Shown here: in pieces, positions 8,527-57,591 of the stretch
Numbering within the stretch: the first letter of the stretch is position 1
Layout: every line of letters begins with the position of its first letter
Assembly (NCBI GenBank): GCA_017513095.1
Contig: JAFWDJ010000020.1
Coordinates: 81,996 to 145,995, forward strand
Length of the DNA stretch: 64,000 nucleotides
Source: Clostridia bacterium
GTDB lineage: Bacteria > Bacillota > Clostridia > Oscillospirales > RGIG577
Reading direction: 5' to 3'
Translations under genes and position numbers: made by a program
The notes under the pieces: generated by a model
Database searches by the model: none
What the model saw: the letters and a program-made list of their open reading frames with translations, nothing else
What the model was told of the DNA's origin: nothing

Positions 8527-8626
8527 GGCTCCCTTGTTCAATCCACCCCAACAACCACCCCGAAAAATGCAAGCATTTTTGGGGGACTCCGGCGGGAGCT
8601 GTCTGCGAAGCAGACTGAGGGATTGT
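8527..8626 (+). repeat. REP1 palindrome interrupted by a small GC palindrome
   Basis: REP1 units read GGCTCCCTTGT...GGGAGCTGTC...GAGGGATTGT. Here the first hairpin is split: about 50 bp (8543-8592) of the small GC palindrome lies where intact copies (35343, 35482, 56772) have five or six bases. Confidence 0.8.
8543..8592 (-). repeat. Small GC palindrome (P45 family), copy 1
   Basis: On the minus strand it begins CCGGAGTCCCCC, has an A-rich/T-rich hairpin around ATGCTTGCAT, and ends CGGGGTGGTTG, followed by a further TTGGGGTGG. It resembles copies at 24784, 36449, 57089 and 57550. Confidence 0.75.
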
Positions 8627-8648
8627 CACTGCTACGCCTTATTATTTT

Positions 8649-9402
8649 TTAAGCTCAAAATAAGCTTCAGCGCCAAGTATTTAACCTATCTCCCCCCTAC
8701 CCACGCCTTCCCGTCCTGCTTCAACATTTATTTTTTTTAGAACTCCGTTCTAAAGACTTTTGCCTCCTGCCGGAGGGGCCTACTTTTGGAAACAAAAGTA
8801 GCAAAATTTCCGGGGGACCGCGGCACAGGCTCGCGGGGTTTGTGCTATATGCAATCTTCCTGCAGCGCTTAGGCCGCCTTCCCCCCGTCCCCTTTGATTT
8901 TGCGGCCTCGATATCATTCATCAACAGAAGATGACGCAATCAAAATCAGACGGGCGCACGATGCGCCCGACACGGCTTGGCCTATGGGGGGCTTTGTTTT
9001 GCAGAAAGCAGCTCTCAGCGGGCGCGAAGGCTTGTAGCGGCTCGGCCGCGGAATTTGATGACGCGCGAAGATATCTCGAATGATGCCTCATATCGAGGCA
9101 ACTATAAGTAATGGAGTAAATTGCGCCCTTGTTCGGAGGAGAAGCGTCGTAAAAACGCGAAGTAACGCCGAGCGGAGAGGCCCGCGCGAGCGTGGCCGGG
9201 AGCGAGGGAGCGGAGAGACGGAGAGGCGGCGAGTCTCTCAGAAATTTTGGTTCTTTTGTTTCCAAAAGAACCCCCGCGGGAGGCGACAAAAGTCTTTAGA
9301 ACGAAGTTCTAAAAAGAAATGAGTTGAAGCAGAATGCAAGCGCGAAAGTTAGAGGGAAGGCAGGTTAAAAACTTAGCGGTGATGCTTGTTTTGAGCTTTT
9401 AA
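8649..9402 (+). repeat. Long intergenic inverted-repeat element, copy A
   Basis: A non-coding element of about 750 bp. Outer arms begin TTAAGCTCAAAA and end TTTTGAGCTTTTAA. Inside are paired blocks GTTCTAAAGACTTTTG / AAAAGTCTTTAGAAC and the hairpins CTTTTGGAAACAAAAG and TTCTTTTGTTTCCAAAAGAA. The centre carries GGGCGCACGATGCGCCC. The same order occurs near 35564-36310 and, inverted, near 56930-57751. No conserved reading frame is convincing. Confidence 0.8.
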
Positions 9403-9408
9403 GACGCC

Positions 9409-9540
9409 CCTCATCCGTCACGGCTTGCGCCGTGCCACCTTTCCCCGAGGGGGAAGGCTTTGGGGACGCACACGCCATGGCGGCGCTGCACCTCATCCGG
9501 CCGCACGGCGGCCACCTTCCCCTCGGAGGGGAAGGCTTTA
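9409..9540 (+). repeat. Two REP2 palindromes
   Basis: Two tandem units of the form CCTCATCCG..CACCTTCCCC..GGGGAAGGC (9409-9460 and 9491-9538). Each has an inner G/C hairpin and an outer CTTCCCC/GGGGAAG hairpin. The second is followed by the TTATGTAAACC motif that recurs at several repeat borders. Confidence 0.75.
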
Positions 9541-9673
9541 TGTAAACCGCCATGCTCTGCAAAGAAGAAGCTTTAAGATTCTTCGGAGCTTTCGCTCCCC
9601 GGAATGACACGGGGGGACATAGGGGGCTGCCCCCCTCCTCCCTGCCCCCTGCCAAAATAACCTTATAAAAAAA

Positions 9674-9702
9674 TTGAAAAAGGCAAAAATAAGTGTTATA
9701 AT
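9674..9702 (+). promoter_or_regulatory. metG promoter
   Basis: TTGAAA (9674-9679), 17-bp spacer, TATAAT (9697-9702) with an extended -10 TG, about 40 bp before the metG start. Confidence 0.8.
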
Positions 9703-9740
9703 ATTTTTTACATACAGTTTTTAATTGGAGGTAGACATTC

Positions 9741-11312
9741 ATGGGAGAGAAATTTTACATCACCACGCCGATATATTTCCCCTCGGCCAAGCTGCACATA
9801 GGCCACTCATATTCCACCGTGGCGTGCGACGCTATCGCGCGCTACAAGCGAATGCGCGGCTATGACGTGATGTTTCTTACCGGAACGGACGAGCACGGTC
9901 AGAAGATCGAAAGAAACGCTCAGGCCGCCGGAGTCACGCCCAAGGAATACGTTGACGATATAGTTGCATCAATAAAGGACCTGTGGAAGCTCTTCGATAT
10001 CTCGAACGACCGCTTCATCCGCACGACGGACGAATATCACGAGAAGGCCGTTCAGAAAATATTCGAAAAGCTCTACGAAAAGGGCGATATCTACAAGAGC
10101 ACCTACGAGGGCTGGTACTGCACGCCGTGCGAGTCCTTCTGGACGGAGCATCAGCTCGTGAACGGCAAATGCCCCGACTGCGGCCGCGACGTTGAGCTTA
10201 CAAAAGAGGAAAGCTACTTCTTCAAGCTCTCGAAGTACAACGACAGGCTCATCGATTTGATCGAGAACAACCCGAACTTCATCCTGCCTCAGAGCCGCGC
10301 CAATGAAATGCTTCAGAACTTCCTGCGTCCGGGACTTGAGGACCTCGCCGTTTCGCGCACCTCGTTCAAATGGGGCATAAAGGTGCCGTTCGACGAGAAG
10401 CATATAATATATGTATGGATCGACGCGCTTTCCAACTACATCACCGCTATGGGCTACCTGTCGGACGACGACTCCGACTTCAAAAAATACTGGCCCGCCG
10501 ACGTTCACGTTATGGCGAAGGAGATCGTGCGCTTCCATACGATAATCTGGCCCGCAATGCTCATGGCGCTCGATCTGCCGCTTCCGAAGCAGGTGTTCGG
10601 CCACGGCTGGCTCGTGCTCGACGGCGGCAAGATGAGCAAATCGAAGGGCAACGTGGTAGACCCCGTGCTGCTTTGCGACAAGTACGGCACGGACGCGATA
10701 AGATACTTCCTGCTTCGTGAGGTGCCGTTCGGTCAGGACGGCGTATTCTCAAACGAGGCGCTCATAAACCGCATAAACTCCGACCTTGCAAACGACCTCG
10801 GAAACCTCGTTTCGCGCACAGTCGCAATGGTGATAAAATACTTCGGCGGCACGCTGCCCGAGATGAGAAAAGCCGAGCCGATAGACGACACGCTCGCGGC
10901 TTTAGCGAAGGAAGTCAGAGAAAAAATGTGCGAGCAGATGGACAGCTTCAATTCGCCGCTTGCGCTCACCGAGATATGGCGCTTCGTTTCGCGCACCAAC
11001 AAATACATCGACGAGACCGCGCCGTGGGTGCTCGCAAAGAACGAGGATGACCGCGCAAGGCTTGCGTCGGTGCTCTATAACCTCTGTGAGAGCATCCGCC
11101 ACATCGCCGTTATGATCTCGCCGTTCATGCCCTCGACCTCGAAGAAAATACTCGAGCAGATAGGCGCAGACGGCGAAGCGCTTACGACGTTCGACAGTCT
11201 CGGCACGTTCGGCGCATCCTCCCCCACGCTGACCGTTAAGAAGGGCGAGGTGCTCTTCCCGCGCATCGACCTTAAAAAAGAGCTTGCCGAGCTTGAGGCC
11301 GCAAAGAAGTAA
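9741..11312 (+). CDS. metG: Methionyl-tRNA synthetase
   Basis: A 523-residue class I synthetase that charges tRNA-Met. It has the HIGH signature (KLHIGHSYS, about residue 14), a single-knuckle zinc region (CTPCESFW...CPDCGRD, about 128-150), the metal/substrate region, and KMSKS (GGKMSKSKGNVVDP, about 298). It lacks the C-terminal tRNA-binding EMAP domain found in longer homologues. GGAGG precedes the ATG. The tatD gene follows at 34 bp, a common pairing in Firmicutes. Confidence 0.97.
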   Translation: MGEKFYITTPIYFPSAKLHIGHSYSTVACDAIARYKRMRGYDVMFLTGTDEHGQKIERNAQAAGVTPKEYVDDIVASIKDLWKLFDISNDRFIRTTDEYHEKAVQKIFEKLYEKGDIYKSTYEGWYCTPCESFWTEHQLVNGKCPDCGRDVELTKEESYFFKLSKYNDRLIDLIENNPNFILPQSRANEMLQNFLRPGLEDLAVSRTSFKWGIKVPFDEKHIIYVWIDALSNYITAMGYLSDDDSDFKKYWPADVHVMAKEIVRFHTIIWPAMLMALDLPLPKQVFGHGWLVLDGGKMSKSKGNVVDPVLLCDKYGTDAIRYFLLREVPFGQDGVFSNEALINRINSDLANDLGNLVSRTVAMVIKYFGGTLPEMRKAEPIDDTLAALAKEVREKMCEQMDSFNSPLALTEIWRFVSRTNKYIDETAPWVLAKNEDDRARLASVLYNLCESIRHIAVMISPFMPSTSKKILEQIGADGEALTTFDSLGTFGASSPTLTVKKGEVLFPRIDLKKELAELEAAKK

Positions 11313-11346
11313 AAACCGACACCGCAATCGTTTTGAGAGGTAAAAA

Positions 11347-12108
11347 ATGCTTTTCGATACACACGCGCATTACGACGACCGAAAATTCGACCCCGACCGC
11401 GACGAGCTTCTGTCGTCCATGCCCGCGCACGGCATATCGCTTATCCTAAACCCCGGCTGCGACGCCGAATCCTCCAGGGCGGCCGTCGCGCTGGCCGAAA
11501 AATACCCCTTCATGTACGCCGCCGTCGGCACTCATCCGCACGAGGCGGAGGCGGCCTCGGAGGAGGATATGGCGCTTTACGCAGAGCTTTCAAAGCACGA
11601 AAAGGTAAAGGCTGTCGGCGAAATAGGGCTTGACTATTATTACGATATGTCGCCGCGCGACGTACAGAAAAAATGGCTTGAAAGACAGCTCTTGCTTGCG
11701 TCAGAGCTTTCGCTGCCCGTGATAATCCACGAGCGCGACGCCGCGGCGGACGTGTTCTCCGCGATAAAGCGCCATTCGCCCGCGGTGCGCGGCGTTTACC
11801 ACTGCTATTCCGGCAGCTGGGAGATGGCGCGCGAGATAATGAAGCTGGGGTATTACATCTCGTTTACCGGCTCGATAACCTTCGCAAAGGCCGACAGGCT
11901 GCGCGAGGTCGTAAAAAAAGTGCCGCTCGAACGCATGATGATAGAAACGGACTCGCCGTATCTTACGCCCGCGCCGTTTCGCGGCAGGCGCAACGACTCA
12001 ACGCGCGTCCATCTCGTGGCCGAACGGATAGCCGAGCTTCACGGCGTATCATACGAGGAAGTCGTGGAAATTACAATGAAAAACGGAAAAGAATTGTTCG
12101 GGATATAA
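11347..12108 (+). CDS. tatD: TatD-family metal-dependent DNase
   Basis: A 253-residue TIM-barrel hydrolase. Metal ligands are visible in LFDTHAHYDDRKFD (HxH near residue 5), AVGEIGLDYYY (Glu), VIIHERDA (His), GVYHCYSGS (His) and MIETDSPYLTPAPFRG (Asp). Family members act as 3'-5' exonucleases or nucleic-acid phosphoesterases in DNA repair and RNA turnover. It is probably co-transcribed with metG and ends at a strong terminator. Confidence 0.95.
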   Translation: MLFDTHAHYDDRKFDPDRDELLSSMPAHGISLILNPGCDAESSRAAVALAEKYPFMYAAVGTHPHEAEAASEEDMALYAELSKHEKVKAVGEIGLDYYYDMSPRDVQKKWLERQLLLASELSLPVIIHERDAAADVFSAIKRHSPAVRGVYHCYSGSWEMAREIMKLGYYISFTGSITFAKADRLREVVKKVPLERMMIETDSPYLTPAPFRGRRNDSTRVHLVAERIAELHGVSYEEVVEITMKNGKELFGI

Positions 12109-12137
12109 AAAAATCCGCCCTCACGGGCGGATTTTTT
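12106..12137 (+). terminator. metG-tatD terminator
   Basis: AAATCCGCCC / GGGCGGATTT hairpin starting at the tatD stop, followed by T6. Confidence 0.9.
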
Positions 12138-12325
12138 GCATAGCAAACCGCCGATATAACCGTCAGCATTCTATTGAACATTTTGCGAATTTTCGCACAA
12201 ATGCTCAATAGCGCATCCTTTTCGTATCTTTTCAAGTTCATGCTTCTTGCGTCGGGACGGGCAATAACAAAAATGCCCGAACATGTCGATTCGGGCCAAA
12301 AACGTTGAGGCCGCCAAATATGATG

Positions 12326-14607
<2,282 letters not shown>

Positions 14608-14900
14608 TAAGCTTTTTTCTCCTAATGCGTACTTGCCGCTGCAGTCTGCCGCAAAAGGGCCGGACCGCCGAAAAAAAGAGAATTTTTAAAAGCTGAGTGT
14701 CGCGTGCTTCATTAGTGCTTTGCGCCAATTTTCAGCGCACCGATCCAAAGCCTCTTATGCGCCGTAAACCGAAAGGTTTACGGCGTTTTTCGGCTATTGC
14801 CGATTGCCTCGCTGCCGTATTTAATACGCCGACGCTCACCAATCTGCAATTCCAACCTCTTTTTGCCATCCTGCCGATACTTTTATCCTCCGTATCGAGA
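14608..14900 (+). repeat. Intergenic repeat with terminator (copy 1)
   Basis: This 3' region shares a block order with 24608-24890: GGGCCGGACCGCCGAAAAA, a variable stretch, a GCCGTAAACC/GGTTTACGGC terminator hairpin, TTTTTCGGCTAT.TGCCGATTGCC, and CGCCGAC.CTC.CCAATC. No gene is seen. Confidence 0.65.
14758..14791 (+). terminator. Terminator after gap
   Basis: Hairpin GCCGTAAACC / GGTTTACGGC followed by GTTTTTC, about 150 bp after the gap stop, within the intergenic repeat. Confidence 0.75.
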
Positions 14901-15024
14901 TAATTATAATACAAATTATCGCGTTTTGTGTACTTTTTCTCTGATAATTCAAAATTTTTTTACAAATTTCGACATCTGCCCTTTTAAATCAGACGAATAT
15001 ACTCCGTATTTTGTATATAAGATA

Positions 15025-15053
15025 TTGACAAGACCATAATTACCGGCTATAAT
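15025..15053 (+). promoter_or_regulatory. Promoter of the fatty acid operon
   Basis: TTGACA (15025-15030), 17-bp spacer, TATAAT (15048-15053): a full consensus promoter just upstream of the operator palindrome. Confidence 0.92.
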
Positions 15054-15060
15054 CAAGATA

Positions 15061-15079: not shown

Positions 15080-15098
15080 CATTATGCGGGGGATAGAG

Positions 15099-15551: not shown

Positions 15552-15553
15552 AC

Positions 15554-16535: not shown

Positions 16536-16570
16536 AAAATATAAAATATTAAATACAGGAGGAAATTATC

Positions 16571-16801: not shown

Positions 16802-16814
16802 AGGCGGGATAAAA

Positions 16815-18658: not shown

Positions 18659-18660
18659 CA

Positions 18661-24783: not shown

Positions 24784-24823
24784 CCGGGGCCCCCAAAAAA
24801 TGTACGCGTTTTTTGGGGTGGTT
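24784..24823 (+). repeat. Small GC palindrome (P45 family), copy 2
   Basis: Starts CCGGGGCCCCC, A6, a short turn TGTACGCG, T6, and ends GGGGTGGTT. The paralogous repeat at 14608-14900 lacks it, giving an empty-site comparison. Confidence 0.75.
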
Positions 24824-35120: not shown

Positions 35121-35530
35121 GCCTTCCCCTTCGAGGGGAAGGTGGCACGGCGCAAGCCGTGACGGATGAGGTGTTATTGCCTCCATCCCCGAGGGAGGTG
35201 GCAGCGCCAACGGCGCTGACGGAGGGAGTCGCCTCCCCTTCGCAGGGCATATCGGTTTACATAATTTCCTCCCCCTCGGGGGAAGGTGTCTGCGGGCAGA
35301 CGGATGAGGGGCAGCACCAACGGCGCATGCGTCCCTCGTCTTGGCTCCCTTGTGCAAAGGGAGCTGTCGGCGCAGCCGACTGAGGGATTGTCGCCCTCCC
35401 CAAAGCCTTCCCCTTCGAGGGGAAGGTGGCCGCCGTGCGGCCGGATGAGGTGCAGCGCCGCCCGGCGCGTGCGTTTTTATCGGCTCCCTTGTGCAAAGGG
35501 AGCTGTCTGCGAAGCAGACTGAGGGATTGT
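35121..35530 (+). repeat. Cluster of REP1 and REP2 palindromes
   Basis: Four REP2-like units (35121-35172, 35180-35227, 35268-35311, 35405-35450) and two intact REP1 units (35343-35391 and 35482-35530) stand side by side in mixed orientation. The motif GGTTTACATAA (35253) lies between them. No gene is supported here. Confidence 0.8.
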
Positions 35531-35563: not shown

Positions 35564-36310
35564 AAAATGCTTTGCCGCCAAGTTTTCAACCTATCTTCCC
35601 TTATATTCTAAGCTTTTTGTTCTGCTTATACATCTTTCTTTTTAGAGCTTCGCTCTAAAGACTCAAATCGCCTCCCGCGGGGGTACTTTTGGAAACAAAA
35701 GTACCAAAATTTCCGGGGGAAATCGGCTGAGGCTCGCAGGGCTTCTTCTAAATGCAAGCTCACATCAGCGCTTAGCGCCGATTTCCCCCCGTCCCCCTTT
35801 GATTTTATGGCCTCGATGTCATTCTTTATCGGTAGATGACACAATCAAAATCAGACGGGCGCACGATGCGCCCGACACGGCGCGGCCGATGGGGTTGCAT
35901 TGGCTTGCCGAAAGCGACTTTCAGCGGGCGCGGAGGCTTGGAGCGGCTCTGCCGCGGAATTTGATGACGCGCAAAGTTATCTCGAATGATGCTTCATGCC
36001 GAGGCAACTATAAGTATAAGCGTAAATTGCGCCTTTTTGTCGTGGGAGAAGGCGAAGGGTATTACGTAGTAACGCCGAGCGGAGAGGCCCGCGCGAGCGA
36101 GGCCGGGAGCGAGGGAGCGGAGAGACGGAGAGGCGGCGAGTCTCTCGGAAATTTTGGTTCTTTTGTTTCCAAAAGAACCCCCGCGGGAGGCGACAAAAGT
36201 CTTTAGAACGGAGTTCTGAAAAAGAATATATGTTAAGGCAGAATGCCATGTTGTAAGTAAGGCAAAAGATAGGTTAAAAACTGAGAAAAAGGCTTTCTAA
36301 TAAGGCTTAA
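35564..36310 (+). repeat. Long intergenic inverted-repeat element, copy B
   Basis: The same layout and orientation as copy A: outer TTAAGCTCAT / AAGGCTTAA ends, the AGACT..AAATC.CCTCCCGCGG block, the TACTTTTGGAAACAAAAGTA hairpin, the GGGCGCACGATGCGCCC core, and the right-hand TTCTTTTGTTTCCAAAAGAA hairpin followed by GTCTTTAGAACGGAGTTC. It has no small GC palindrome in either arm and so serves as an empty-site reference for copy C. Confidence 0.8.
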
Positions 36311-36333: not shown

Positions 36334-36382
36334 ACAATCCCTCAGTCAGCAGAGCTGACAGCTCCCTTTACACAAGGGAGCC
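36334..36382 (-). repeat. REP1 palindrome
   Basis: Reverse-oriented unit (ACAATCCCTCAGTCAGCAGA...GGGAGCC). Its ACAATCCCTCAGTCAGCAGA segment is identical to the sequence that encodes the end of the DUF559 protein at 53229. Confidence 0.8.
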
Positions 36383-36410: not shown

Positions 36411-36544
36411 GCACCTCATCCGTCACGGCTTGCGCCGTGCCGCTTTCCTAACCACACCAACAACCACCCCGAAAAATGCAAGCATTTTTTGGGGACCCCG
36501 GAATCCGCGGGCGTATTCTTCGGGGGCACCGGCGAGGGGAAGGC
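36411..36544 (+). repeat. REP2 palindrome interrupted by nested small palindromes
   Basis: The unit starts CACCTCATCCGTCACGGC and resumes CGAGGGGAAGGC. About 83 bp between the TTCC and CGAGG of the outer hairpin is foreign relative to intact copies and consists of two small GC palindromes, one inside the other. Confidence 0.75.
36449..36531 (-). repeat. Small GC palindromes (P45 family), copies 3a/3b, one nested in the other
   Basis: On the minus strand the outer copy starts CCGGTGCCCCCGAAGAATAC...GGATT. It is broken by an inner copy (CCGGGGTCCCC...ATGCTTGCAT...CGGGGTGGTTG) and continues TTGGTGTGGTT. Confidence 0.65.
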
Positions 36545-49700: not shown

Positions 49701-51455
49701 CTTATGGTACGTATAATTGCCCTTGTCGGGGTCGGTCGACTTTATTAAATCGTTGTATCTTCCGTTATTTACGATGGTGCCGAGGTTGTAAAGCGAGCCG
49801 TTTATGAGAAGGCAGCCGTTGTTCGTAAGCAGAGCGCCGGGGAGTATGTTCATGATGGCGTCGCTTACGTCGCGCTGAGCGGGAGCCGCGGGGTCGATGG
49901 GCTTGCCCTCGGTGCCCTCTATCGTTATAATGCCGTTGTTCTCGATCTCGCCGCCGGCCTCGATGACGATTATGCCGTTCGTAAGGTTCGGCGCCGTCGG
50001 AGCGGGCTGACCCTCGGTCGCGGTTGTCGACGCGGCGTCGTACTCAATCTCAAGCTGGCACGTCTTGTCTATTACAAGTCTGCCGCCGCTCTTTACGCGA
50101 AGGTTTGCGTTGTTGCCCACGGCAAGCTCCGCGCCCGTCGTATTGGAGCGGTCCCGAAGCTCGAACGTCGCGTTCGATACCGTAATGGCCGCGGCGTTCG
50201 TCGACTGATGGTTCGCTACCTGTATGTCGAAGCTGTTTACGTCAAGGATGACGCAGCGCGAAGCCGCGTCCGTGCCCTCTACAACGAGGCCCTCGAGTAC
50301 CGGCACCTCGCAGATGAGCTTTATCGGCACGTTGTTGTAATCCTCCCATGCCATGGCCTTTCTAAGCGACCAGAACTCGTCCGCGGCACCGCTGTCCATT
50401 AACTCGAACTTTTCGGGCGCTATGACGGCGACGTCGGAAGTGGGTATCGGCACGGGGCTCATATACCGGCCGTCCTCCGCCGAAACCTTTACTTCTATTT
50501 CAAGGTCGGAGCCCTTAACGGTGTAGCTCGTTATATCGTCCGCCGTTACCTTGCTCTCGTCGAAGTACTTCTTCATCATGAGCTGCTCATGAGTGGGAGC
50601 GTTCGGGTCGGTGGGCGCGGGAGCGGCAGGGTCGTATACGAGCGACGGGTCGTAGTCGCCCACCTGGTCAACATAGAACGAAAGTCCCACGTCGGCGGTC
50701 GGGGTGGCCGGGTCGGTGCTGCCCGTATCGGCGCCCGCGATAACGGTGCCCGAGGATATGAGCACAACGTCGATATACGGCGTGTTCATGTCGTAGCCGT
50801 CCTTGTCCTTCAGTGAAGCGGCCGCATTGTCAAGCGAATACGCGCCCGCCTTGCTGCCCGTGGAGTCGACAAAGTACGCCGAGCCGTCGCCTATCGTCTG
50901 ACCGATGGCAACAAGCAGCGCCTTATTGCCGTCCTGCTTAACGTGGAGGTAGCTGCCCTCGGGCGCGCCCGCGATAAGCTCGCTTACGTCGACGCGCAGA
51001 ATATAGTAAGTTCCGTCGAAGCCGGACATCTTCTTATGAGTGCCGTCAGCGCCGTTCGGGTTTGCCTCCTCGATTATCTGATAGCGGAAGTAGCTGTACG
51101 GCGCATAGAGCGCGCCGCCCTCGATGGGCGTAAATTCCGTCGCACCCGTCTTTACCTCATACGGCACCGCCGCGCCCGTTATGATGGCGGGCGACTGCGT
51201 GGTGGGGCCGTCCTCGAGATTCTGCTTTGCTATCGAGGGTATGCCCATCGTAAGAGCGCGGTCGCCCTTCTGGGCCTTTACCGCATATACGCCCGGCAGG
51301 TTATCGCCGTCGATAATCCCGGCGTTCCTGTCGTACGACGTCGCAAATATAATGATATTTGCATGGGCCAGCGCCGCGCCGGGAAGAAGCGTCAGCATGA
51401 ACGCAAGCACGAGCGCAAGGCAGAGTATGCTTTTTCTCAAAGTTCGTCTATTCAT
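46713..51455 (-). CDS. Very large SLH-domain surface protein
   Basis: A 1580-residue exported protein. Residues 1-31 are a signal peptide. About 430-800 has repeated beta strands rich in N, G and T (ANLRVKSGGRLVIDKTCQLEIEY, GALLTNNGCLLINGSLYNLG) like a right-handed beta-helix. About 940-1200 holds beta modules of the MBG type (EYNGKPQTLITTGG, VGEPIGELTYTVSGAVG). About 1225-1290 is a Listeria-Bacteroides/InlB-type repeat (VTFDSNGGSAVAAAQGLVFG, DFTGWTLYG). A Gly-rich linker (about 1292-1310) leads to three SLH motifs (about 1395-1580). Probably an adhesin or S-layer associated protein; no enzyme motif is visible. Confidence 0.85.
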   Translation of the reverse strand: MNRRTLRKSILCLALVLAFMLTLLPGAALAHANIIIFATSYDRNAGIIDGDNLPGVYAVKAQKGDRALTMGIPSIAKQNLEDGPTTQSPAIITGAAVPYEVKTGATEFTPIEGGALYAPYSYFRYQIIEEANPNGADGTHKKMSGFDGTYYILRVDVSELIAGAPEGSYLHVKQDGNKALLVAIGQTIGDGSAYFVDSTGSKAGAYSLDNAAASLKDKDGYDMNTPYIDVVLISSGTVIAGADTGSTDPATPTADVGLSFYVDQVGDYDPSLVYDPAAPAPTDPNAPTHEQLMMKKYFDESKVTADDITSYTVKGSDLEIEVKVSAEDGRYMSPVPIPTSDVAVIAPEKFELMDSGAADEFWSLRKAMAWEDYNNVPIKLICEVPVLEGLVVEGTDAASRCVILDVNSFDIQVANHQSTNAAAITVSNATFELRDRSNTTGAELAVGNNANLRVKSGGRLVIDKTCQLEIEYDAASTTATEGQPAPTAPNLTNGIIVIEAGGEIENNGIITIEGTEGKPIDPAAPAQRDVSDAIMNILPGALLTNNGCLLINGSLYNLGTIVNNGRYNDLIKSTDPDKGNYTYHKGIQLSWKDDVTQNTTVMGSLVVGMDRDGNTDNAAGAKLVNTGDVVLVPGYLEVYGQMENSGTLYVCAVDEAIIPVLPTADKPTVTEKRVKLGSVVTSYFVISAGASLTNTGTITAAEAEIVNNGRTGELNTAPAEKFLSKIDVHNLGDMENSGTVSVNALNTYATVTSSGSIKNRVILKADDESSGVFENSSADRAEAVYNGAKIVVGDTDIWSFAGDPVLTVTPADQSVQGGDVITWSITADTTMPGRDVQYLLTVCELNPFKEVALVTLDGDTPTDVSSVIAPVKNDVVMYEFFLEGTMNAGAAANASVEVTSTSITAPAPIEGLEYNGKPQTLITTGGVNGEGRLLYKRGEDPDYSAELPTATDAGIYSVYYMLEGAPDSEGCVYTTINPKLAAVSANDASSAVGEPIGELTYTVSGAVGADTLGDIALSTDAVSETAGVYEIKAELTNPNQNYVLAVSCGTYTVTENSFAVTAKDKHGVYSDEATYAGFNIEVTAPEGAKTYYSTTTQLDASNYQTAGLETLVNLPAGAGMHDVFYYVTNGTDAVSGCKSVIIDKAEQAAPTGLTTVAESVKGAADGVISGLKPREAEYRPANNGGTYATAYQEAVYVPAGTYLVRKPGDENHFASPDTTVTVDEGPTITVTFDSNGGSAVAAAQGLVFGDLVPRPRTPTLDGYDFTGWTLYGRTFDFSTPVTNDITLTASWKQRGGNGGGGGGGGGSSSSASNEVTLPKASEGGTVSANFASAKAGDMVTLTVRPNPGYKLSYVSVTDKNGNAVPVFENPDGTYTFKMPSSDVTVTPNFVKDETNAAGGFKDLDPNAWYMDGISWCLENGLMNGVGDDMFAPNDQTSRAMIVTMLWRMEGEPESGTSAFTDVADGSWYAQAVSWAAENGIVNGVSETEFAPDSPLTREQLAAILYRYAQTKGQGFTGMWAFRLDYSDIEDISEYAYEPMCWMVMNDVIGGMGDGTLAPQGNATRAQVATMLMRFSAALSE

Positions 51456-51464
51456 GTCCTCACC

Positions 51465-52214
51465 TTAATCCCTTTCGTAATCTATATCCGCGTCGAGTAT
51501 ATCGCCGGTCGCCGCGTCGATGTCGTAGCTGTACTCCGTATATCCGACATAGAACTCGACCTCATAAACAAGGCGGCCGTCGTCATAATCCTGCTTCGCC
51601 GTAAGGCGCGTAACGTCCGAGCGCTTAAGTCCCGCTTGCGTGAGAGCCTTGTTTATCGCCGCCTCGCGGCCTATGTCGCCGCTTTGGTAATTCGCCGCGC
51701 TGTGGTCTATGTCGATGTCGGTTATATTGCCGGTCGCGGCGTCTATCTCATAGTCGTACTCAACGCCGCCCGCGTAAAACTCCACTTCGTAAACAAGGCG
51801 TCCGTCGTCATAATCCTGCTTCGCCGTAAGCGCGGTGACCTCGCCGCGCGAGAATCCCGCATTGGCAAGCGCCTTGTTTATCGCGGCGTCCTGGCCTACG
51901 GTGCCGGTCGTCTGTCCGCCCTGCGATGCCGCGGGAGGCATGCCCGTATAGGGCGAGCGCGACTGCATCTGAACGGCGCTGCCGTCCCAATACACGTTGA
52001 AGTTTATGACCTGTCCCACGTCGCGCAGTTTAACGTAGTTGCTGTCGTTTATAAGATACGTTTCAAGCTCGACACGGCTGCCGTCGACGAAGACCGTCTG
52101 CGTCGAGCGCTGCGCCATAACGCCGCCGATGTCGATGCCGAATGCGCTGCCCGCAAGTATGCTTCCTATAAGCACTCCGCCTAAAAACAGCACCGTTCCC
52201 TTTAGCTTTTTCAT
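51465..52214 (-). CDS. Exported protein with stalk-like domain and two PepSY domains
   Basis: A 249-residue protein. Residues 1-28 are a signal or anchor helix. About 40-85 resembles the copper amine oxidase N-terminal domain (VELETYLINDSNYVKLRDVGQVINF), also seen in the amidase at 1149. Two PepSY units follow (about 105-175, 180-249), each with AINKALA.AG, TAKQDYDDGRLVYEVEFY and YEIDAATGNI. The two repeats share long identical stretches, suggesting recent duplication. PepSY domains are thought to bind or inhibit proteases. It ends 9 bp before the large SLH gene and may be its co-transcribed partner. Confidence 0.82.
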   Translation of the reverse strand: MKKLKGTVLFLGGVLIGSILAGSAFGIDIGGVMAQRSTQTVFVDGSRVELETYLINDSNYVKLRDVGQVINFNVYWDGSAVQMQSRSPYTGMPPAASQGGQTTGTVGQDAAINKALANAGFSRGEVTALTAKQDYDDGRLVYEVEFYAGGVEYDYEIDAATGNITDIDIDHSAANYQSGDIGREAAINKALTQAGLKRSDVTRLTAKQDYDDGRLVYEVEFYVGYTEYSYDIDAATGDILDADIDYERD

Positions 52215-52372
52215 CTTCGGTTCCCCCTCTTAAGTGATTTATTTATAATACGTCGCGTATTTTTTCATAATCCCGCTACGGTATAAATTGTACCATATTT
52301 TTACCTCCCACTGCAAGGAAAATATATGCAAGGTATACGAAAAAACAAAAGCCATCTCCGCAGAAGTCTATT

Positions 52373-52437
52373 TTATGTAAACTATCTTCTCCATCGGCAA
52401 GCCGCGTCGGGGAATGAGGTTTACATAAATCAGGCAG
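52373..52437. repeat. Short repeat bounded by TTATGTAAAC / GTTTACATAA
   Basis: A 65-bp unit with inverted ends encloses CTTCTCCATCGGCAAGCCG.GTCGG, a block also found near 57830 before a truncated long element and partly near 58262. Probably a remnant of the border of a long element. Confidence 0.5.
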
Positions 52438-52465
52438 CAAGAATCGCGGTGTTGTGCCGCCCTAA

Positions 52466-52498
52466 AAAGCAAGAGAAACGCCGCAGCGTTTCTCTTCT
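52466..52498 (-). terminator. NUDIX gene terminator
   Basis: AGAGAAACGC / GCGTTTCTCT hairpin just beyond the NUDIX stop; the minus strand continues into GCTTTTTAGG. Confidence 0.7.
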
Positions 52499-52501
52499 CA
52501 A

Positions 52502-53116
52502 TTATTCATTATTTTTGAGCAGCTCCAAAAAATTATACAGCATCTCCGCCGTAAGGCCCCAGATCGCGCCGCACGGGCTGTCGTAGAAGTAGAACTTGCG
52601 CGTGGCGTAGGCGAAGGGATAATTCCTGCCGCCCGGTATCGCGTCGAACGGGAAATCGTCGCCCGGCTGCACCTGAAGTCTGCCCTTGTATATCTTCGGC
52701 GGCGTTTCGAGAAGCTCAGAGAGCGGCAGAGTGAATACGCGCTCCACCTCCGCGGGATCGGCGCCGCCCGCGTAATCGTGAAGTATGCCCACAAACGAAT
52801 GGACCTCCTTAATGCCGCGCCCCGGCAGTATATGAAGCGGCGCCAAAAGCTCTATATTCTCGATCGGCATCATAAGCTCCTCCGACGTCTCCCTGACGGC
52901 GGCCTCGGCCGGAGTCTCGCTGCCCTCCGCATGGCCCCCCGGGAAGCAGATCTCGCCGCCCTGCGGGATATGGCTCTCGCGCTTTTCAAAAAGCACGTGC
53001 ATTTCGCCGTCACGCTCCACCAGCGGCACGAGCACCGACGCTATTACCGTATTTTTCGGCCTGATGAGCTCCGCCTCGTGCCCCGAAAGCTTCTGCCGTA
53101 TATTTTTAAGTTCCAT
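52502..53116 (-). CDS. NUDIX hydrolase, CoA pyrophosphatase type
   Basis: A 204-residue enzyme. The NUDIX box GGHAEGSETPAEAAVRETSEEL (about 78-100) has the metal-binding REtxEE core. The preceding SHIPQGGEICFPGG and following region resemble the NudL/CoAse group, which cleaves CoA into 4'-phosphopantetheine and 3',5'-ADP. It ends in a Trp-Gly-Leu-Thr motif (IWGLTAEML) typical of this subgroup. Confidence 0.88.
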   Translation of the reverse strand: MELKNIRQKLSGHEAELIRPKNTVIASVLVPLVERDGEMHVLFEKRESHIPQGGEICFPGGHAEGSETPAEAAVRETSEELMMPIENIELLAPLHILPGRGIKEVHSFVGILHDYAGGADPAEVERVFTLPLSELLETPPKIYKGRLQVQPGDDFPFDAIPGGRNYPFAYATRKFYFYDSPCGAIWGLTAEMLYNFLELLKNNE

Positions 53117-53204
53117 TTATGCCACCTCGCTTGCATTATAAGTATATATTATCACGTTCGCCGCGCGAAATCCAGCTTTTCACATTATATTTATGCATAA
53201 AAAA

Positions 53205-53253
53205 GGCTCCCTTGTGTAAAGGGAGCTGTCAGCTCTGCTGACTGAGGGATTGT
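53205..53253 (+). repeat. REP1 copy at the 3' end of the DUF559 gene
   Basis: Intact REP1 (GGCTCCCTTGTGTAAAGGGAG...GAGGGATTGT). Its inner edge faces the DUF559 gene, and it encodes the last residues and stop of that gene. Confidence 0.85.
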
Positions 53254-53597
53254 TTAATCACATTATCAAGATACTCGCAAACCTCGCCAAAATTCTTATT
53301 TATCTCGTTGTTTGGAATACGAATAATTTTAAGTCCGTATTTTTTCAAATATTCATCGCGTTTTGTATCATATCTTTGCCCCGCCTCTTCATAATGCTGC
53401 GAACCGTCAAGCTCGATAATCAGTTTTGCCGAAGCGGAATAAAAATCGACTATATATTTTCCCAGCACCTTTTGACGAGAAAAACGAACGGGATAGTCTT
53501 TTAAAAATTTATACCATAAATTACGTTCTTCCTTCGTCATACTTTTGCGCAATTCTCGTGCATTTTGGACAAGGGATTTATTGTGCTTTCTGTCCAT
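53229..53597 (-). CDS. DUF559/very-short-patch-repair-like endonuclease fold protein between inverted REPs
   Basis: A 122-residue PD-(D/E)XK-fold protein. Family motifs are ARELRKSMTKEERNLWYKF, FSRQKVLGKYIVDFYSAS (catalytic Asp in VDFY), and LIIELDGSQHYEEAGQRYD (ELDGxxH with catalytic Glu and Asp), then RRDEYLKKYG-like and IRIPNNEI. It is A/T-rich for the window. The Shine-Dalgarno GGAGG (53607-53611) lies in the left inverted REP, 8 bases before the ATG. The last seven residues and stop (QSLSQQS-stop) are encoded by the right REP. Likely a small mobile cargo or repeat-associated nuclease; activity is unproven. Confidence 0.88.
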   Translation of the reverse strand: MDRKHNKSLVQNARELRKSMTKEERNLWYKFLKDYPVRFSRQKVLGKYIVDFYSASAKLIIELDGSQHYEEAGQRYDTKRDEYLKKYGLKIIRIPNNEINKNFGEVCEYLDNVIKQSLSQQS

Positions 53598-53600
53598 TTT

Positions 53601-53654
53601 ACAATCCCTCCGTCTGCCTTACGGCAGCCACCTCCCTTTACACAAGGGAGGTGG
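53601..53654 (-). repeat. REP1-like copy at the 5' end of the DUF559 gene
   Basis: Inverted relative to the copy at 53205: ACAATCCCTCCG...CCTCCCTTTACACAAGGGAGG. It supplies the ribosome binding site of the DUF559 gene. Confidence 0.8.
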
Positions 53655-53710
53655 TTTTGTTAGCGGATTTTATTATGATGAACACTCATGGCGGCTTTTT
53701 CCGCCTTGAC

Positions 53711-54280
53711 TTACGCCAGCAGCCAATCTACGATCTCATCCGCCGCCTTAACGTAATCGGCGTTGTCCATAACGCTGCCGGGCACGCCCACGCCGCCGGC
53801 CACGAACGACTTATAATCGGTAAATCCCGACGCTGCGAAATTGCGAAGGTCCGCGTCGAGCACCTTTAAATATACGTCCGCGGGGCCTACGCCGCAGCAG
53901 AGATAGCCCGCGAGCTTCTTGTCCTTGCGGCTCGCCGAGGAGTAGCCGGGGAGCTTGAAGTTAAGGAACGCGTACGTTCTGTCAACGAACGCGCAAAGCT
54001 GCGCGGGGAAGCGGCCGTAATGAACGGGGCCTATTATCACCATCGCGTCGCATTTGTCTATCGTGGGTATGAGCTCCGTGAAATCGTCCTTCTGAATGCA
54101 GAAGGGCGCGTCCTTTTTCTTGCAGGTGTCGCATGCGAGGCACGCGCGCACATCCTTTTCGCCCACGTTGAACTCTACGACCTCGGCCTTGCCCGCAAGC
54201 TTATCGGCCATATACCGCTCCAGCGCGTACGAATTGCCCTTTTTTCTCTTGCTGCCGTTTACGATAAGTATTTTCTTCAT
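53711..54280 (-). CDS. Flavodoxin-family NAD(P)H-dependent oxidoreductase with cysteine motif
   Basis: A 189-residue flavodoxin-like protein. The N-terminal ILIVNGSKRKKGNSYALERYMA binds FMN phosphate; CLACDTCKKKDAPFC (about 47-61) is the multi-cysteine insert of the iron-sulfur flavoprotein/multimeric flavodoxin group; VIIGPVHYGRFPAQLCAFVDR is the flavin loop. It may reduce quinones or electrophiles. The ATG at 54280 has GGGAG upstream and is chosen over an earlier in-frame codon. Confidence 0.87.
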   Translation of the reverse strand: MKKILIVNGSKRKKGNSYALERYMADKLAGKAEVVEFNVGEKDVRACLACDTCKKKDAPFCIQKDDFTELIPTIDKCDAMVIIGPVHYGRFPAQLCAFVDRTYAFLNFKLPGYSSASRKDKKLAGYLCCGVGPADVYLKVLDADLRNFAASGFTDYKSFVAGGVGVPGSVMDNADYVKAADEIVDWLLA

Positions 54281-54397
54281 GTTTTCATCTCCCTTTACTT
54301 TGTTTTGTCCGATTTGGGCGCCGCCGCGCGGCGCCTGTGTATATCTGTAATATATCACATTTTATCCCGAAGTGTCAATCAAAGCCCCCGAAAACTA

Positions 54398-54427
54398 AAA
54401 ACGCCCCTCGAAAAACGAGGGGCGCAC
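54398..54427 (-). terminator. Lipoprotein gene terminator
   Basis: CGCCCCTCG / CGAGGGGCG hairpin followed on the minus strand by TTTTTAG, shortly after the lipoprotein stop. Confidence 0.85.
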
Positions 54428-54438
54428 GGTTTAAAATA

Positions 54439-55092
54439 TTACTGACCGATAAGTACCATGTCGGTAACCTCGGAGCGGTCGCCTAAGTCCGTATAGATGT
54501 ATACGAACGCGTTCGCGGGGTCGCCGTTTTCATTCGTCGTCTGGCAGAAGAAGCAGTAGTTCATGCCGCCTACGACCTGTTCGGATACGAGCGCGATCGG
54601 TATGCACTCGGCGCCGTCGTATTCCTCGAACGCACGGTCAAATATAGCCTTAAGCTCATCCGTTATAACGGGGGACGAGGGGTCGCCCCAGCCGCCCGTC
54701 TCATTGCCGGAGGAAACCTGCGTCGGTACGCCCGTGTCCACCATGTCGGATACGAGCGGTATGCCCGCGTCGTCCTCGGTGAGGGATATGAGCATGAACG
54801 TCTCCGTATCGCTGCCGAGGGCCGATACGCGCGCAAGGAACGTCTTCCCCTTGCTCGTATTGCCGAAGAACGCAACGGGCTTTAAGGTTAGGCTTGCCGC
54901 ACCCTCGAACGCCTTGTCAAAGTCGGCGCGAAGCTGCGCGGAAATCTCCGGCGGATTTACCTCTGTCGCCTCTGTCTCAGCCGCAGGCTCGGACGGCTCC
55001 TCCTGTGCGGGCGTCTCATTCGACTTCTGGCCGCACGCCGTAAAAGCGAACGCCATAAGCAGCGCCAGGATAAGCGCAATTATTTTTTTCAT
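54439..55092 (-). CDS. Lipoprotein of unknown function
   Basis: A 217-residue protein with a lipoprotein signal (IIALILALLMAFAFTACGQ, lipobox Cys20) and a Pro/Glu-rich linker to about residue 48. The remaining domain has two similar halves, each starting L...FD.AFE (ISAQLRADFDKAFEGA and ITDELKAIFDRAFEEYD), followed by beta strands (LKPVAFFG..., CIPIALVSEQ). This internal duplication suggests a two-module extracytoplasmic domain. No enzyme motif is recognised. Confidence 0.75.
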   Translation of the reverse strand: MKKIIALILALLMAFAFTACGQKSNETPAQEEPSEPAAETEATEVNPPEISAQLRADFDKAFEGAASLTLKPVAFFGNTSKGKTFLARVSALGSDTETFMLISLTEDDAGIPLVSDMVDTGVPTQVSSGNETGGWGDPSSPVITDELKAIFDRAFEEYDGAECIPIALVSEQVVGGMNYCFFCQTTNENGDPANAFVYIYTDLGDRSEVTDMVLIGQ

Positions 55093-55199
55093 TGTGTATT
55101 CCTTCTTTCAAAAAAATATTGTTTGTTTCATTGGGTTTGACTTATAAAGCCCCAAAAAAGTTTCAAGTGAGGGCTTTTTTCTGCGCGGCGCGCCGTTCG

Positions 55200-55412
55200 T
55201 TATCCTCGTTTGCCGTCGGTTCGATCACTTTTCCCGCTGACGATACGAAAATGAAGATAAAACTTTATCTCGTCGGCAGCCCAAACTTCGCCCCGTTCTC
55301 CGAGAGCCGAGTATCCGTCAATGACGTATTCCCACCTATACAAGCCGCCTTCTTTAAAGGCCGTACCTTCGGGCGTATGCATACAAACGCATAAACGCTC
55401 CATATCCGTCAC
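55200..55412 (-). CDS. Small protein translationally coupled to the FAH-family gene
   Basis: A 70-residue protein that overlaps the stop of the FAH-family gene (55409) by 4 bp, so it is probably co-translated. It reads like a compact beta-rich domain (GGLYRWEYVIDGYSALGERGEVWAADEIKFYLHF) resembling the loose class of 60-80-residue cytoplasmic binding modules with a GK.Y...D..G.....S...F layout. No family can be named with confidence. It ends in a basic tail. Confidence 0.55.
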   Translation of the reverse strand: MTDMERLCVCMHTPEGTAFKEGGLYRWEYVIDGYSALGERGEVWAADEIKFYLHFRIVSGKSDRTDGKRG

Positions 55413-56275
55413 CCCTCGGGCGTTTCTACGATATTCGTAAGTCGGCCGATGCCCTCAATTTCGCATACGACCTCGTCGCCGGGGTGAAGCGTCTTCGGCG
55501 GGTCGAAGCCCGCGCCCACGCCCGCGGGCGTGCCGGTCGAGATTATCGTGCCCTTCTGAAGCGTTATCATCTGCGAAAGCTCCGATATAACGTAGGGTAT
55601 GTCGAATATCTGCTTCGACGTGTTCGACGACTGGCGAAGCTCTCCGTTTACATAAGAGCGTATATTCAGATTATTGTAAACAAGGTCGTTCTTCGTTACG
55701 ACGCACGGGCCCATCGGGCAGTAGCCGTCGAGACTCTTGCCCGCGTACCACTGAAGGTGGCGCCGCTGTATCGTGCGCGCCGTCACGTCGTTTAATATCG
55801 TATAGCCGAAAACGTAGTCGAGCGCTTCCTCGCGCGATACGCGCTTAGCGGTCTTTCCGATGATGAGCGCAAGCTCGACCTCGTAATCAAGCCTGTCGTC
55901 AACGTCGCCGTGCCACGGGATAAGCCCTCCGTCGCCCACGGCGCGGTCAACGCGCTTTCCGAAATACGCGGGATACTCGCGCGGGCCGTCGAACGCGGCC
56001 GCCTTGAAGCGCGCCGACTCCTCGGCGTGGTCGAGGTAATTTACGCCGAGGCAGATTATGTCGCGCACGGGCTCGGGTATCGGCGCAAGTATTTTCACTT
56101 TGTCATAGGGGATGTCGTCGCCCGTATAAAACGAACGTATCTTCTTTTCGTCCATGCCCAAAAGCTCCTCAAGCGAGGTCACACCCTCGAGCACGCGTAT
56201 CGTGTTTCCCTCCGGTGCGGCGGCAAGTATGCCAACGCCCGCAGTCTTTCTGTATTCGTACGTTACAAGCTTCAT
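55409..56275 (-). CDS. Fumarylacetoacetate hydrolase-family protein
   Basis: A 288-residue enzyme. The core begins DIICLGVNYLDHAEE and contains LDYEVELALIIGKTAKRVS with metal-binding Glu residues, YTILNDVTARTIQRRHLQWYAGKSLDGYCPMGP, and STGTPAGVGAGFDPPKTLHPGD near the C terminus. Members cleave or isomerise 2-keto acids such as acylpyruvates, or decarboxylate oxaloacetate. The substrate cannot be assigned. It is the first gene of a two-gene unit. Confidence 0.9.
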   Translation of the reverse strand: MKLVTYEYRKTAGVGILAAAPEGNTIRVLEGVTSLEELLGMDEKKIRSFYTGDDIPYDKVKILAPIPEPVRDIICLGVNYLDHAEESARFKAAAFDGPREYPAYFGKRVDRAVGDGGLIPWHGDVDDRLDYEVELALIIGKTAKRVSREEALDYVFGYTILNDVTARTIQRRHLQWYAGKSLDGYCPMGPCVVTKNDLVYNNLNIRSYVNGELRQSSNTSKQIFDIPYVISELSQMITLQKGTIISTGTPAGVGAGFDPPKTLHPGDEVVCEIEGIGRLTNIVETPEG

Positions 56276-56423
56276 GCTTTTCCCCTCCGATTCGGTTTAC
56301 ATAATTTTAGGGCCGCGCGATATCGCGGCTTTTTCTTCTATTTTAGCAGTACGGCCGCAAAAAGTAAATATACGGCGCGCGCCTTGTTTTTTTCTATGAA
56401 AACAGGTAAACTTTTATAAAGGA

Positions 56424-56690
56424 GTGAAAATTATGGATTTTATTTACGAAAGCGAACGCATATACGCGCTTGACGAAGGCGGGCGGCTTATTGCCGAGAT
56501 TACGTTCCCCGTGCGCGGGGACGCGGCGGTGATTGATCACACGTTCGTCGATCCGTCGCTTCGCGGGCAGAAGATAGCCGACCGGCTCGTGCGCGAGGCT
56601 TTGGCGCAGATTCGGGCGCACGGTCTTGCGCCCGGGGCCACCTGCCCCTACGCCGTGAAGTGGTTTCGGGAGCACCCGGAGGAATTTTGA
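56424..56690 (+). CDS. Small GNAT-fold N-acetyltransferase (YjdJ/CG-type)
   Basis: An 88-residue minimal acetyltransferase. It has the short N-terminal strands (RIYALDEGGRLIAEITFPV), the CoA-pyrophosphate loop VDPSLRGQKIADRLVREAL, and the conserved ATCPYAVKWFREHPEEF end. This group is small and single-domain; the substrate is unknown. AAAGGAG precedes the ATG. REP2 starts 9 bp after the stop. Confidence 0.9.
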   Translation: MKIMDFIYESERIYALDEGGRLIAEITFPVRGDAAVIDHTFVDPSLRGQKIADRLVREALAQIRAHGLAPGATCPYAVKWFREHPEEF

Positions 56691-56696
56691 CCGCCG

Positions 56697-56925
56697 CCTC
56701 CCGGCGGGGGGAAGGTGTCTGCAGGCAGACGGATGAGGGGCAGCGCCAACGGCGCATGCGTCCCCCATAATGGCTCCCTTTGTGTAAAGGGAGCTGTCTG
56801 CGCAGCCGACCGAGGGATTGTCGTTCCCCCGTCCTTCGTAGGGAGGCGTCCCCAGACGCCTCCGCGTGTCTTAGCCGTGTTTTCACGGAGGCATGAAGGC
56901 ATGCCTCCCTACGGAAGCATTATTG
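56697..56925 (+). repeat. REP2, REP1 and a third palindrome
   Basis: REP2 (56699-56741), REP1 (56772-56821) and a further hairpin element with CGTAGGGAGGC / GCCTCCCTACG arms (56836-56920) stand in a row. Confidence 0.75.
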
Positions 56926-57088
56926 ATAACTCAATGCACAAAAATGCTTCACTTCCAAGTTTTTAACCTACCTTCCCCTATACTTACAGCCTCACATCCT
57001 GCTTTAACATAATTCTTTTTCAGAACTCCGTTCTAAAGACTTTTGTCGCCTCCCGCGGGGGTTCTTTTGGAAACAAAAGAACCAAAAT

Positions 57089-57131
57089 CCGGGGCCCCCG
57101 AAAAATACGCCCGCGGATTTTTTGGGGTGGT
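57089..57131 (+). repeat. Small GC palindrome (P45 family), copy 4
   Basis: CCGGGGCCCCCG, A5, TACGCCCGCGGA, T6, GGGGTGGT. It sits between ACCAAAAT and GAGAGACT of long element C. Confidence 0.75.
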
Positions 57132-57549
57132 ATTGAGAGAGACTGCCGCCTCTCGGACTCTTCGCTCCCTCGCTCCCGGCCTCGCGAGCGGGCCTCTCCG
57201 CTCGGCGTTACTTCGCAATAGCTTTTGCCTTCTCTCACGGCAAAAAGGCGCAATTTACTCTTAACTTATAGTTGCCTCGGCATGAGGCATCATTCGAGAT
57301 AACTTCGCGTCCAATCAAATTCCGCGGCCGAGCCGCTCCAAGTCTTTGGCTCCCGAAAGAAGTGACTTCGCCGGACGCGCCGTGTCGGGCGCATCGTGCG
57401 CCCGTCTGATTTTGATTGCGCTATCTTCCGATGATGAGTGACGTCGAGGCAGTAAAATCAAAGGGGACGGGGGGAAATCGGCGCTAAGCGCTGATGTGAG
57501 CTTGCATTTAGCACAATCCCCGCGAGCCTCAGCCGATTTCACCCTCAAT

Positions 57550-57591
57550 ACCACCCCAAAAAATCCGCAAGCGTATTTTTCGGGGCCCCGG
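57550..57591 (-). repeat. Small GC palindrome (P45 family), copy 5
   Basis: Inverted relative to copy 4 and nearly identical to it. It lies in the opposite arm of the same long element, before ATTTTGCTAC. Confidence 0.75.

Follow-up and report, generated by a model that had tools for sequence, protein, structure and literature searches.

A stretch of 64,000 nucleotides from a Clostridia bacterium of the order Oscillospirales (contig JAFWDJ010000020.1; hereafter the window) raises the question of how very short palindromes come to lie inside other repeats. Six palindromes of 37–42 bp occur in the window, all of them within other repeats, and an earlier note on this DNA had read them as a tiny inserted palindrome that must be moved in trans or arise by a copying process. 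That reading is supported by filled and empty sites on viral contigs and by target duplications of 4–5 bp, and we put at roughly three in four the probability that the palindromes belong to a new family of minimal hairpin elements, approximately 38 bp long, that are non-autonomous, duplicate their target, and are moved in trans by a putative enzyme. The element consists of an unpaired 5′ foot (CCGGGG[T/C]), a CCCC:GGGG clamp, a stem-loop, and a 3′ foot (TGG). The viral contigs and the pooled statistics described below establish new insertion with precise ends, a duplication of 4–5 bp, a preference for hairpin loops, pairing of the stem, and a strand bias.

Filled and empty sites and target duplications

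Two sites were followed on viral contigs. A Mu gp27-like gene (PF11985, E 3.6e-7) contains site A at its 3′ end, ahead of the terminase. Of 80 related loci that were kept, 78 were readable and 73 could be anchored; five of these are filled (three distinct sequences) and 68 are empty (39 distinct), with TGGTGA exact in 22 of the 68. The filled loci L313 and L314 read CCGTTGGT–insert–TGGTGATCGC and the empty locus L315 reads CCGTTGGTGATCGC, which corresponds to an exact 4-bp duplication of TGGT. In L344 and L345, the insert occupies the same position but two left bases are altered, and L338 carries a diverged copy. The insert and its duplication add 42 bases (38 + 4) to the gp27-like gene, and likewise 42 (39 + 3) to a plasmid gene described below, where the reading frame is kept.

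The gene downstream of site B has no Pfam or PHROG match. Among 31 related loci, 25 were readable (17 distinct upstream sequences), and these comprise five filled loci, one decayed copy recognised by eye (L419), and 19 loci without the insert, three of which (L406, L412, and L418) diverge upstream and may represent a different site. The target A[CT]TTTGCG is kept in 13 loci, namely the five filled ones, L419, and seven empty ones. L394 and L402 read CTATTTT–insert–ATTTTGCGG versus ATTTTGCGG in the empty L397, a 5-bp duplication of ATTTT, and L401 reads ACTTT–insert–ACTTT versus a single ACTTT in the empty L404, again a 5-bp duplication; in L393 and L395, the left and right duplications differ by one base. 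The earlier note had taken sites that are always filled among relatives as the outcome that would speak against insertion, and had suggested looking for target-site duplications. Both viral sites occur in filled and in many empty forms, and the duplications are present.

At site A, the stems of L313, L344, and L338 differ while their pairing is kept. This is what would be expected if there were no mobility at all and template switching (quasi-palindrome correction) rewrote the loops of repeats where they stand, the frame being a converging binding or terminator motif. Template-directed correction of imperfect palindromes could change the stems at one site, with pairing kept, without selection, and template switching may explain later stem changes. 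The exact target duplications beside many empty orthologues are nevertheless a strong argument against rewriting as the whole story, and we regard this explanation as very improbable.

The duplication is also visible in pooled statistics, for which 197 copies were grouped into 90 independent contexts after the removal of copies that lie no more than 40 bases from the end of a locus or have no folded stem. The mean 4-bp flank match is 1.469, compared with 0.963 ± 0.088 in shuffled data, and none of 500 shuffles is as high; exact 4-bp duplications number 4.6 against 0.39 expected, and exact 5-bp duplications 1.44 against 0.13, while the mean flank match at 8 bp shows no excess. An earlier grouping into 84 contexts gave a like result (exact 4-bp duplications, 5 versus 0.52). 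A looser grouping into 24 contexts, with 44 copies dropped, gave a weak duplication signal and no exact 4-bp excess; it was judged too loose and was replaced by the 90 contexts. As in miniature inverted-repeat transposable elements (MITEs), the target duplication is of a fixed short length, which here varies between 4 and 5 bp and is 3 bp (AAG) for the copy on the plasmid.

In 12.9 of the 90 contexts, the junction is enclosed by a perfect helix of 6 bp or more, compared with 2.4 expected, and none of 300 shuffles is as high. This perfect-helix criterion, on which the loop preference depends, replaced a looser folding test that had proved uninformative (0.46 observed versus 0.39 for shuffled flanks, with a maximum of 0.56). 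The hosts differ by lineage and are often hairpin loops: GGGCC-ATCC-ATGGCCC and GGGCAAAAA-CACTCTTTTGCCC in Desulfarculus, GCGCCTCC-TC-GGGGGAGC in Clostridia, CCCCTTCTTATCAAGAAGGGG in an alphaproteobacterium, a GGCGGAT/ATCCGCC hairpin in Manganitrophus, and the 3′ part of a T-box leader (Rfam match) in Shimazuella. A further locus (L131, 930–1284) contains two tandem 5′ tRNA-Leu fragments with the element replacing the D-loop in each, directly upstream of an intact tRNA-Leu.

Frame, stem, and probable folding strand

The frame was examined in 26 aligned 38-bp elements picked to differ by at least three stem letters, in which 17 columns are invariant (CCGGGG, CCCC, and GGGGTGG). Ten stem pairs are formed in 98.5% of the 260 cells; a slide of one column lowers this value to 52–55%, and the peak is at slide 0 alone. 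Double-change stem cells number 55, compared with 16.2 in shuffles. Between the clamp strands, any stem sequence is admissible as long as it pairs.

Wobble pairs were counted with a symmetric fold filter, as a top-strand filter is biased; 122 of 208 distinct elements were accepted and thinned to 82. On the CCGGGG strand of these 82 elements, 54 G·T pairs are found versus 7 A·C pairs, and 19 versus 3 when the clamp-adjacent pair is left out (p = 0.0009). As the opposite strand reads A·C for each G·T, it is probably the fold of the CCGGGG strand that counts, whether as DNA or as RNA. A strand bias with wobble pairs, together with the preference for hairpin loops, would also suit an RNA hairpin that spreads by being reverse transcribed into new sites. 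However, reverse transcriptase (PF00078) was found in 10 of 29 genomes that carry the element (carriers) and was not found in G001, G002, G196, G262, or G300, so that we give this route very little credence.

A comparison of 12 loci and the window with 4227 Rfam models at the gathering score returned no family for the element. The only matches were to T-box, tRNA, and group II intron models, and one T-box match overlaps an insert by 14 bases.

Copies in the window and the home genome

The six copies listed in the earlier note (starting at 8543, 24784, 36449 (two nested), 57089, and 57550) are all borne out by the sequence. The first copy proper begins 12 bp further on, and the 12 bp before it match the right end of a lost outer copy (Table 1). 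The accompanying statement that an uninterrupted host is present in the window for every site is correct for five of the six, as the host repeat of the copy at 24784 has no second copy within the window. Where the palindrome itself is the target of nesting, two un-nested copies occur in the window, and the empty REP2 copies were counted with a hairpin pattern of our own. The 11-letter start alone gives 10 matches in the window with at most one mismatch, a number reached in 5 of 100 shuffles and not significant.

Table 1. Element copies, host repeats, empty sites, and neighbouring features in the window
Feature	Position	Strand	Basis or remark
Element copy (CCGGAGTCCCCC..GGGGTGG) inside REP1	8555–8592	−	Sequence read
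Vestige TTGTTGGGGTGG, 12 bp, matching right end of lost outer copy	8543–8554	−	Comparison with intact nested copies
REP1 host repeat, interrupted at hairpin apex	8527–8626	−	Comparison with uninterrupted REP1
Element copy, one arm of palindromic intergenic repeat	24784–24821	+	Sequence read
Inner nested element copy	36464–36501	−	Sequence read
Outer element copy, split by inner copy, at apex of REP2 hairpin	36452–36532	−	Sequence read
Element copy in long element; also a relative, itself un-nested, of outer copy 36452–36532	57089–57130	+	
Element copy, one C short, at inverted end of long element	57551–57591	−	
Uninterrupted REP1 (empty sites), n = 5	36357–36381; 35344–35368; 35483–35507; 53206–53230; 56773–56798	+; −; −; −; −	
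Uninterrupted long-element site CAAAATTTCCG, n = 5	35705–35715; 8802–8812; 9239–9249 (one mismatch); 36146–36156; 58005–58015	+; +; −; −; −	
Uninterrupted REP2 hairpin, n = 7	57784–57804; 9438–9457; 9515–9535; 35122–35142; 35268–35286; 35406–35426; 58228–58247	+ (first)	
Long element, inverted ends cagaactccgttctaaagac... / ...gtctttagaacggagttctg	56990–57740		
T-box leader (RF00230)	8141–8401	−	
Group II intron RNA domains (RF02001, RF01998)	62574–62860		Region 61188–62860 (−)
Reverse-transcriptase frame, 456 aa	61188–62558	−	

The long element of the window has inverted ends with one element copy in each, and resembles a large inverted-repeat element. The T-box leader lies approximately 150 bp from the copy in REP1, and the reverse-transcriptase frame lies beside the group II intron domains.

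The home genome (G000; 1.99 Mb in 45 contigs) contains 25 matches to the full pattern and none to the reversed control. A looser pattern matches 40 times (control 0), compared with 10 times in G001, a genome of the same genus, and not at all in G002, and a pattern that leaves the stem free finds 38, 10, and 14 copies in G000, G001, and G002, respectively. The hosts in the home genome are REP1, REP2, two parts of the long element, the palindromic intergenic repeat, and other element copies, and empty and filled forms can be paired genome-wide, e.g., AGCTCCC-TTTACACAA-GGGAGCT (empty) and AGCTCCCG–insert–ATTGAACAAGGGAGCT (filled).

Two features of the home copies would also fit the rewriting of loops in place. 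The filled REP1 copies share a single common junction and differ in their stems, and the uninterrupted copies of the long element, which read TTTCCGGGGG, could have arisen from a filled copy by slippage deletion. In L029, L031, and L041 (at approximately 1460–1530), nested copies have a long-element or other sequence on one flank and REP1 on the opposite flank, which suggests recombination at the palindrome; the mixture of long-element and REP1 flanks in L029 and L031 suggests that copies also recombine with one another.

Distribution, proposed mobilising activity, and known systems

The scope of the earlier note, with this bacterial group and with repeats as hosts, proved too narrow, as the frame is found in unrelated bacteria, on a plasmid, and on viral contigs, with hosts beyond repeats. 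One scan of a species-genome collection with the strict frame pattern returned 74 stretches. These come from 21 genomes, with titles that name Desulfarculus, Dethiosulfatarculus, Bacteroidales, an alphaproteobacterium, Clostridia, a Bacillota bin, a Shimazuella soli isolate, Nitrospiraceae, Manganitrophus, and a Chloroflexi bin, and which, by our own placement of these titles, fall into six phyla. Within the home order, the stem-free pattern matches 19 of 295 genomes, including G196 (21 copies) and G262 (13 copies); two of the single matches are not palindromic, and the reversed control matches seven genomes, once each. Across a phylum sample of 398 genomes, three match besides the home genome, although no palindrome is apparent by eye in any of them; the reversed control matches one genome, twice. 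The presence of an 18-letter frame in unrelated phyla, set beside so few matches in the 397 other genomes of that sample, is a second argument against loops rewritten in place.

The viral database IMG/VR contains at least 120 frame stretches, and in 80 loci, 56 of 81 distinct matches have at least seven stem pairs. One contig of 134 kb (IMGVR_UViG_3300035696_000011; L201, L210, L261, L268, L276, and L428) carries at least 12 distinct copies with different stems, and may be bacterial instead of viral. The plasmid copy, from an acidobacterial isolate (Acidisarcina), shows the full frame within an annotated gene with AAG on either side. A BLAST search of plasmids with the acidobacterial-type element gave two weak matches (E 0.03 each), to Acidisarcina (full frame) and Streptomyces (partial); the same element found nothing among phages, and the home-type element found nothing among plasmids. 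Tandem arrays with spacers of 3–10 bp occur in L101, L128, L151, L237, and L259, and some of the spacers equal flanking bases (CTCG in L259, AAGC in L237). In two loci of G262 (L146 and L162, from approximately 1500), the element is followed after 12 bp by another hairpin, which starts with CGGGGTCCCC and has a stem of its own; in the third copy read (L170), it is farther off.

The search for a mobilising gene was confined, among the many transposase families, to Y1, IS1380, rve, and DDE_Tnp_1, and also covered reverse transcriptase and Cas1. Y1 transposases were found in 10 of 24 carriers (eight above the cut-off) and in four of nine further carriers (three above), but not in G001 (99% complete, 10 copies), G002 (97%, 14 copies), or G196 (93%, 21 copies). 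IS1380 (PF13701) was found in 2 of 29 carriers, the one match above the curated cut-off being a 75-residue fragment with a stop, rve in 5 of 13, DDE_Tnp_1 in 1 of 13, and Cas1 in 6 of 29. G002 and G196 yielded none of the six mobility families. Since most carriers are draft genomes, the absence of a gene can reflect an assembly gap, although several are 93–99% complete. An all-against-all comparison of 4404 open frames of at least 70 residues near copies gave no cluster that spans more than 5 of 23 lineage labels. A mobilising enzyme would be widespread, or repeatedly gained and lost.

These results do not support the partner gene suggested in the earlier note, one like the REP-associated tyrosine transposases (RAYTs), which act on repetitive extragenic palindromes (REPs). 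Under this explanation, the element would be a REP, and a Y1 tyrosine transposase of the RAYT or IS200/IS605 type would move it in the form of single-stranded DNA. A hairpin with an unpaired foot and a strand bias is in keeping with it, and the sole Y1 gene found in the home genome (L171, 1036–1857) lies approximately 430 bp from a nested copy, a proximity that is probably a coincidence. The gene is missing from G001, G002, and G196, all of which have many copies, and patchy in other carriers, and IS200/IS605 elements are not known to leave target duplications. As a general mechanism this explanation is largely refuted, and we hold it to be improbable.

GTAG REPs with their RAYTs (REPtrons) are short palindromes recognised on one strand via a foot and a hairpin (PMC8266576), and the element would resemble them in this. 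However, no GTAG or GTRG tag is present in the 26 aligned elements, whose feet are CCGGGG[T/C] and, on the other strand, CCA; moreover, Y1 is missing from several multi-copy carriers, and the duplications are of 4–5 bp. The CGTC-tagged REPs (dRS3, RPE-4, and RPE-6) are palindromes of 20–40 bp with an unpaired tag and tail, occur in several phyla, and are defined by a CGTC (TGTC, CCTC) tag at one end and a stem of 8–9 bp; no dedicated transposase is known for them, some lie inside palindromes or genes, and their mode of spread is open (PMC3733652). The element is similarly a short palindrome with unpaired ends that occurs in several phyla and in part within palindromes or genes. It differs in that its tag CCGGGG[T/C] and its TGG foot lie on the same strand, in its CCCC:GGGG clamp, and in the absence of a CGTC-type tag; it also has target duplications and empty orthologous sites, whereas the term “target site duplication” does not appear in the main text of PMC3733652. 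A precedent for nesting in palindromes exists in the REP superfamilies, as that text reports it for some GTAG and CGTC REPs (PMC3733652), and nesting is to that extent also in keeping with a Y1 transposase.

By its tag, the element is outside the GTAG/RAYT and CGTC superfamilies, and it works like a minimal MITE or REP. The very small mobile repeats of cyanobacteria reported by Elhai et al. in 2008 are said to be likewise tiny and nested in other repeats, but shorter and restricted to cyanobacteria. The BoxC/PIT/TMECO triplex motif is a G/C-rich palindromic repeat that is found in many genomes and is absent or changed between strains, and it has the form CCCTCNCCC..GGGNGAGGG..GGGNGAGGG, with three 9-nt blocks in the order C-rich, G-rich, G-rich (PMC4666352). 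In contrast, the order in the element is GGGG-CCCC-GGGG with a 1-nt linker, and triplex formation was dropped on geometry, as a linker of one base would not appear to fit. The frame was not found described in the literature searched by element letters (full text) and by concept, a search outside which most subscription papers fall.

MITEs are 70–300 bp long according to the same REP source (PMC3733652). The element is likewise non-autonomous and target-duplicating with inverted repeats, its ends (CCGGGGTCCCC and CCACCCC) being imperfect inverted repeats; it differs in its length of approximately 38 bp, in its unconserved stem sequence, and in the lack of a parent element in the fetched loci. 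It could accordingly be an ordinary MITE of a DDE transposase, i.e., the two short ends of an insertion sequence whose full-length partner is lost or unseen. Duplications of 4–5 bp and CC...GG ends suit a cut-and-paste transposase, and CC ends with such duplications are reminiscent of IS1380, although the PF13701 search of the carriers did not bear this out. Against such an origin stand the sparse occurrence, among the transposase families searched, of IS1380, rve, and DDE_Tnp_1 given above, the lack of any end pair bracketing a gene in the fetched loci, and stem letters that are wholly different between lineages, which is unusual for a terminal repeat bound by a transposase. Separate ends with matching arms formed 10 pairs, all of them nested, tandem, or neighbouring copies, and no solitary left end was found in the fetched loci with a right end 40–4000 bp away and an exact 5-bp duplication. 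An origin of this kind is unlikely.

The reading as a new family of hairpin elements moved in trans has to be held against a series of observations that weaken it. None of the six mobility families is present in every carrier searched, and the 2.6 Mb of fetched, partly overlapping locus DNA yielded no longer element that shares these ends. The mean flank match is not significant at 5 bp (39 of 500 shuffles as high) and only mildly raised at 6 and 7 bp (17 and 18 of 500), and many copies agree at three or fewer of the four flank bases. About 77 of the 90 contexts lie outside a perfect-helix loop, and as helices of at least 8 bp show no clear excess, insertion into hairpin loops is a preference and not a rule. 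The pairs in REP1 and the long element of the home genome are without a clean duplication, and since the TTTCCGGGGG form might be a deletion, the home genome alone is no proof of insertion. The loci were collected with the frame pattern, so that the frame is bound to look conserved in part. Two of five covariation measures are without clear excess, namely pairs changed on both sides (5 versus 4.2; 171 of 500 shuffles) and further pair types (16 versus 13.8; 53 of 500). Part of the G·T excess, at the clamp-adjacent pair, may be sequence recognition, and the commonest nested variant of the home genome folds better on the opposite strand (−9.6 versus −7.2 kcal/mol). Lastly, 9 of 142 copies fail when palindromes are scored without gaps, including the sole copies found in four of the 21 genomes (L088, L117, L129, and L135), which pair with a bulge when inspected by eye.

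A mechanism for the hairpin family can be outlined from the frame, the strand bias, and the duplications. A trans-acting protein would recognise the folded CCGGGG strand through the feet, the clamp, and the hairpin; a copy of the folded strand would be joined to a staggered cut of 4–5 bp, and gap filling after joining would produce the target duplication. We tentatively propose, at somewhat less than even odds, that a new and widespread activity moves hairpins of 38 nt as folded single strands into staggered cuts, with a preference for hairpin loops, and reads only the seven-letter foot, the clamp, and the three-letter foot. If this is the case, the element would be among the smallest transposons known, with an interior that is required solely to pair.

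The breadth, the size, and the clear transposition scars of the family are unusual among short palindromic mobile repeats. It offers a cross-phylum frame, sites that are cleanly filled or empty, a duplication of measured length, and a strand that is likely to be the folding one, and the element may serve as a minimal substrate and as an insertion marker for phages and uncultured bacteria. Short palindromic repeats are common in bacteria, and this family of elements makes it testable how those that lack a RAYT spread.

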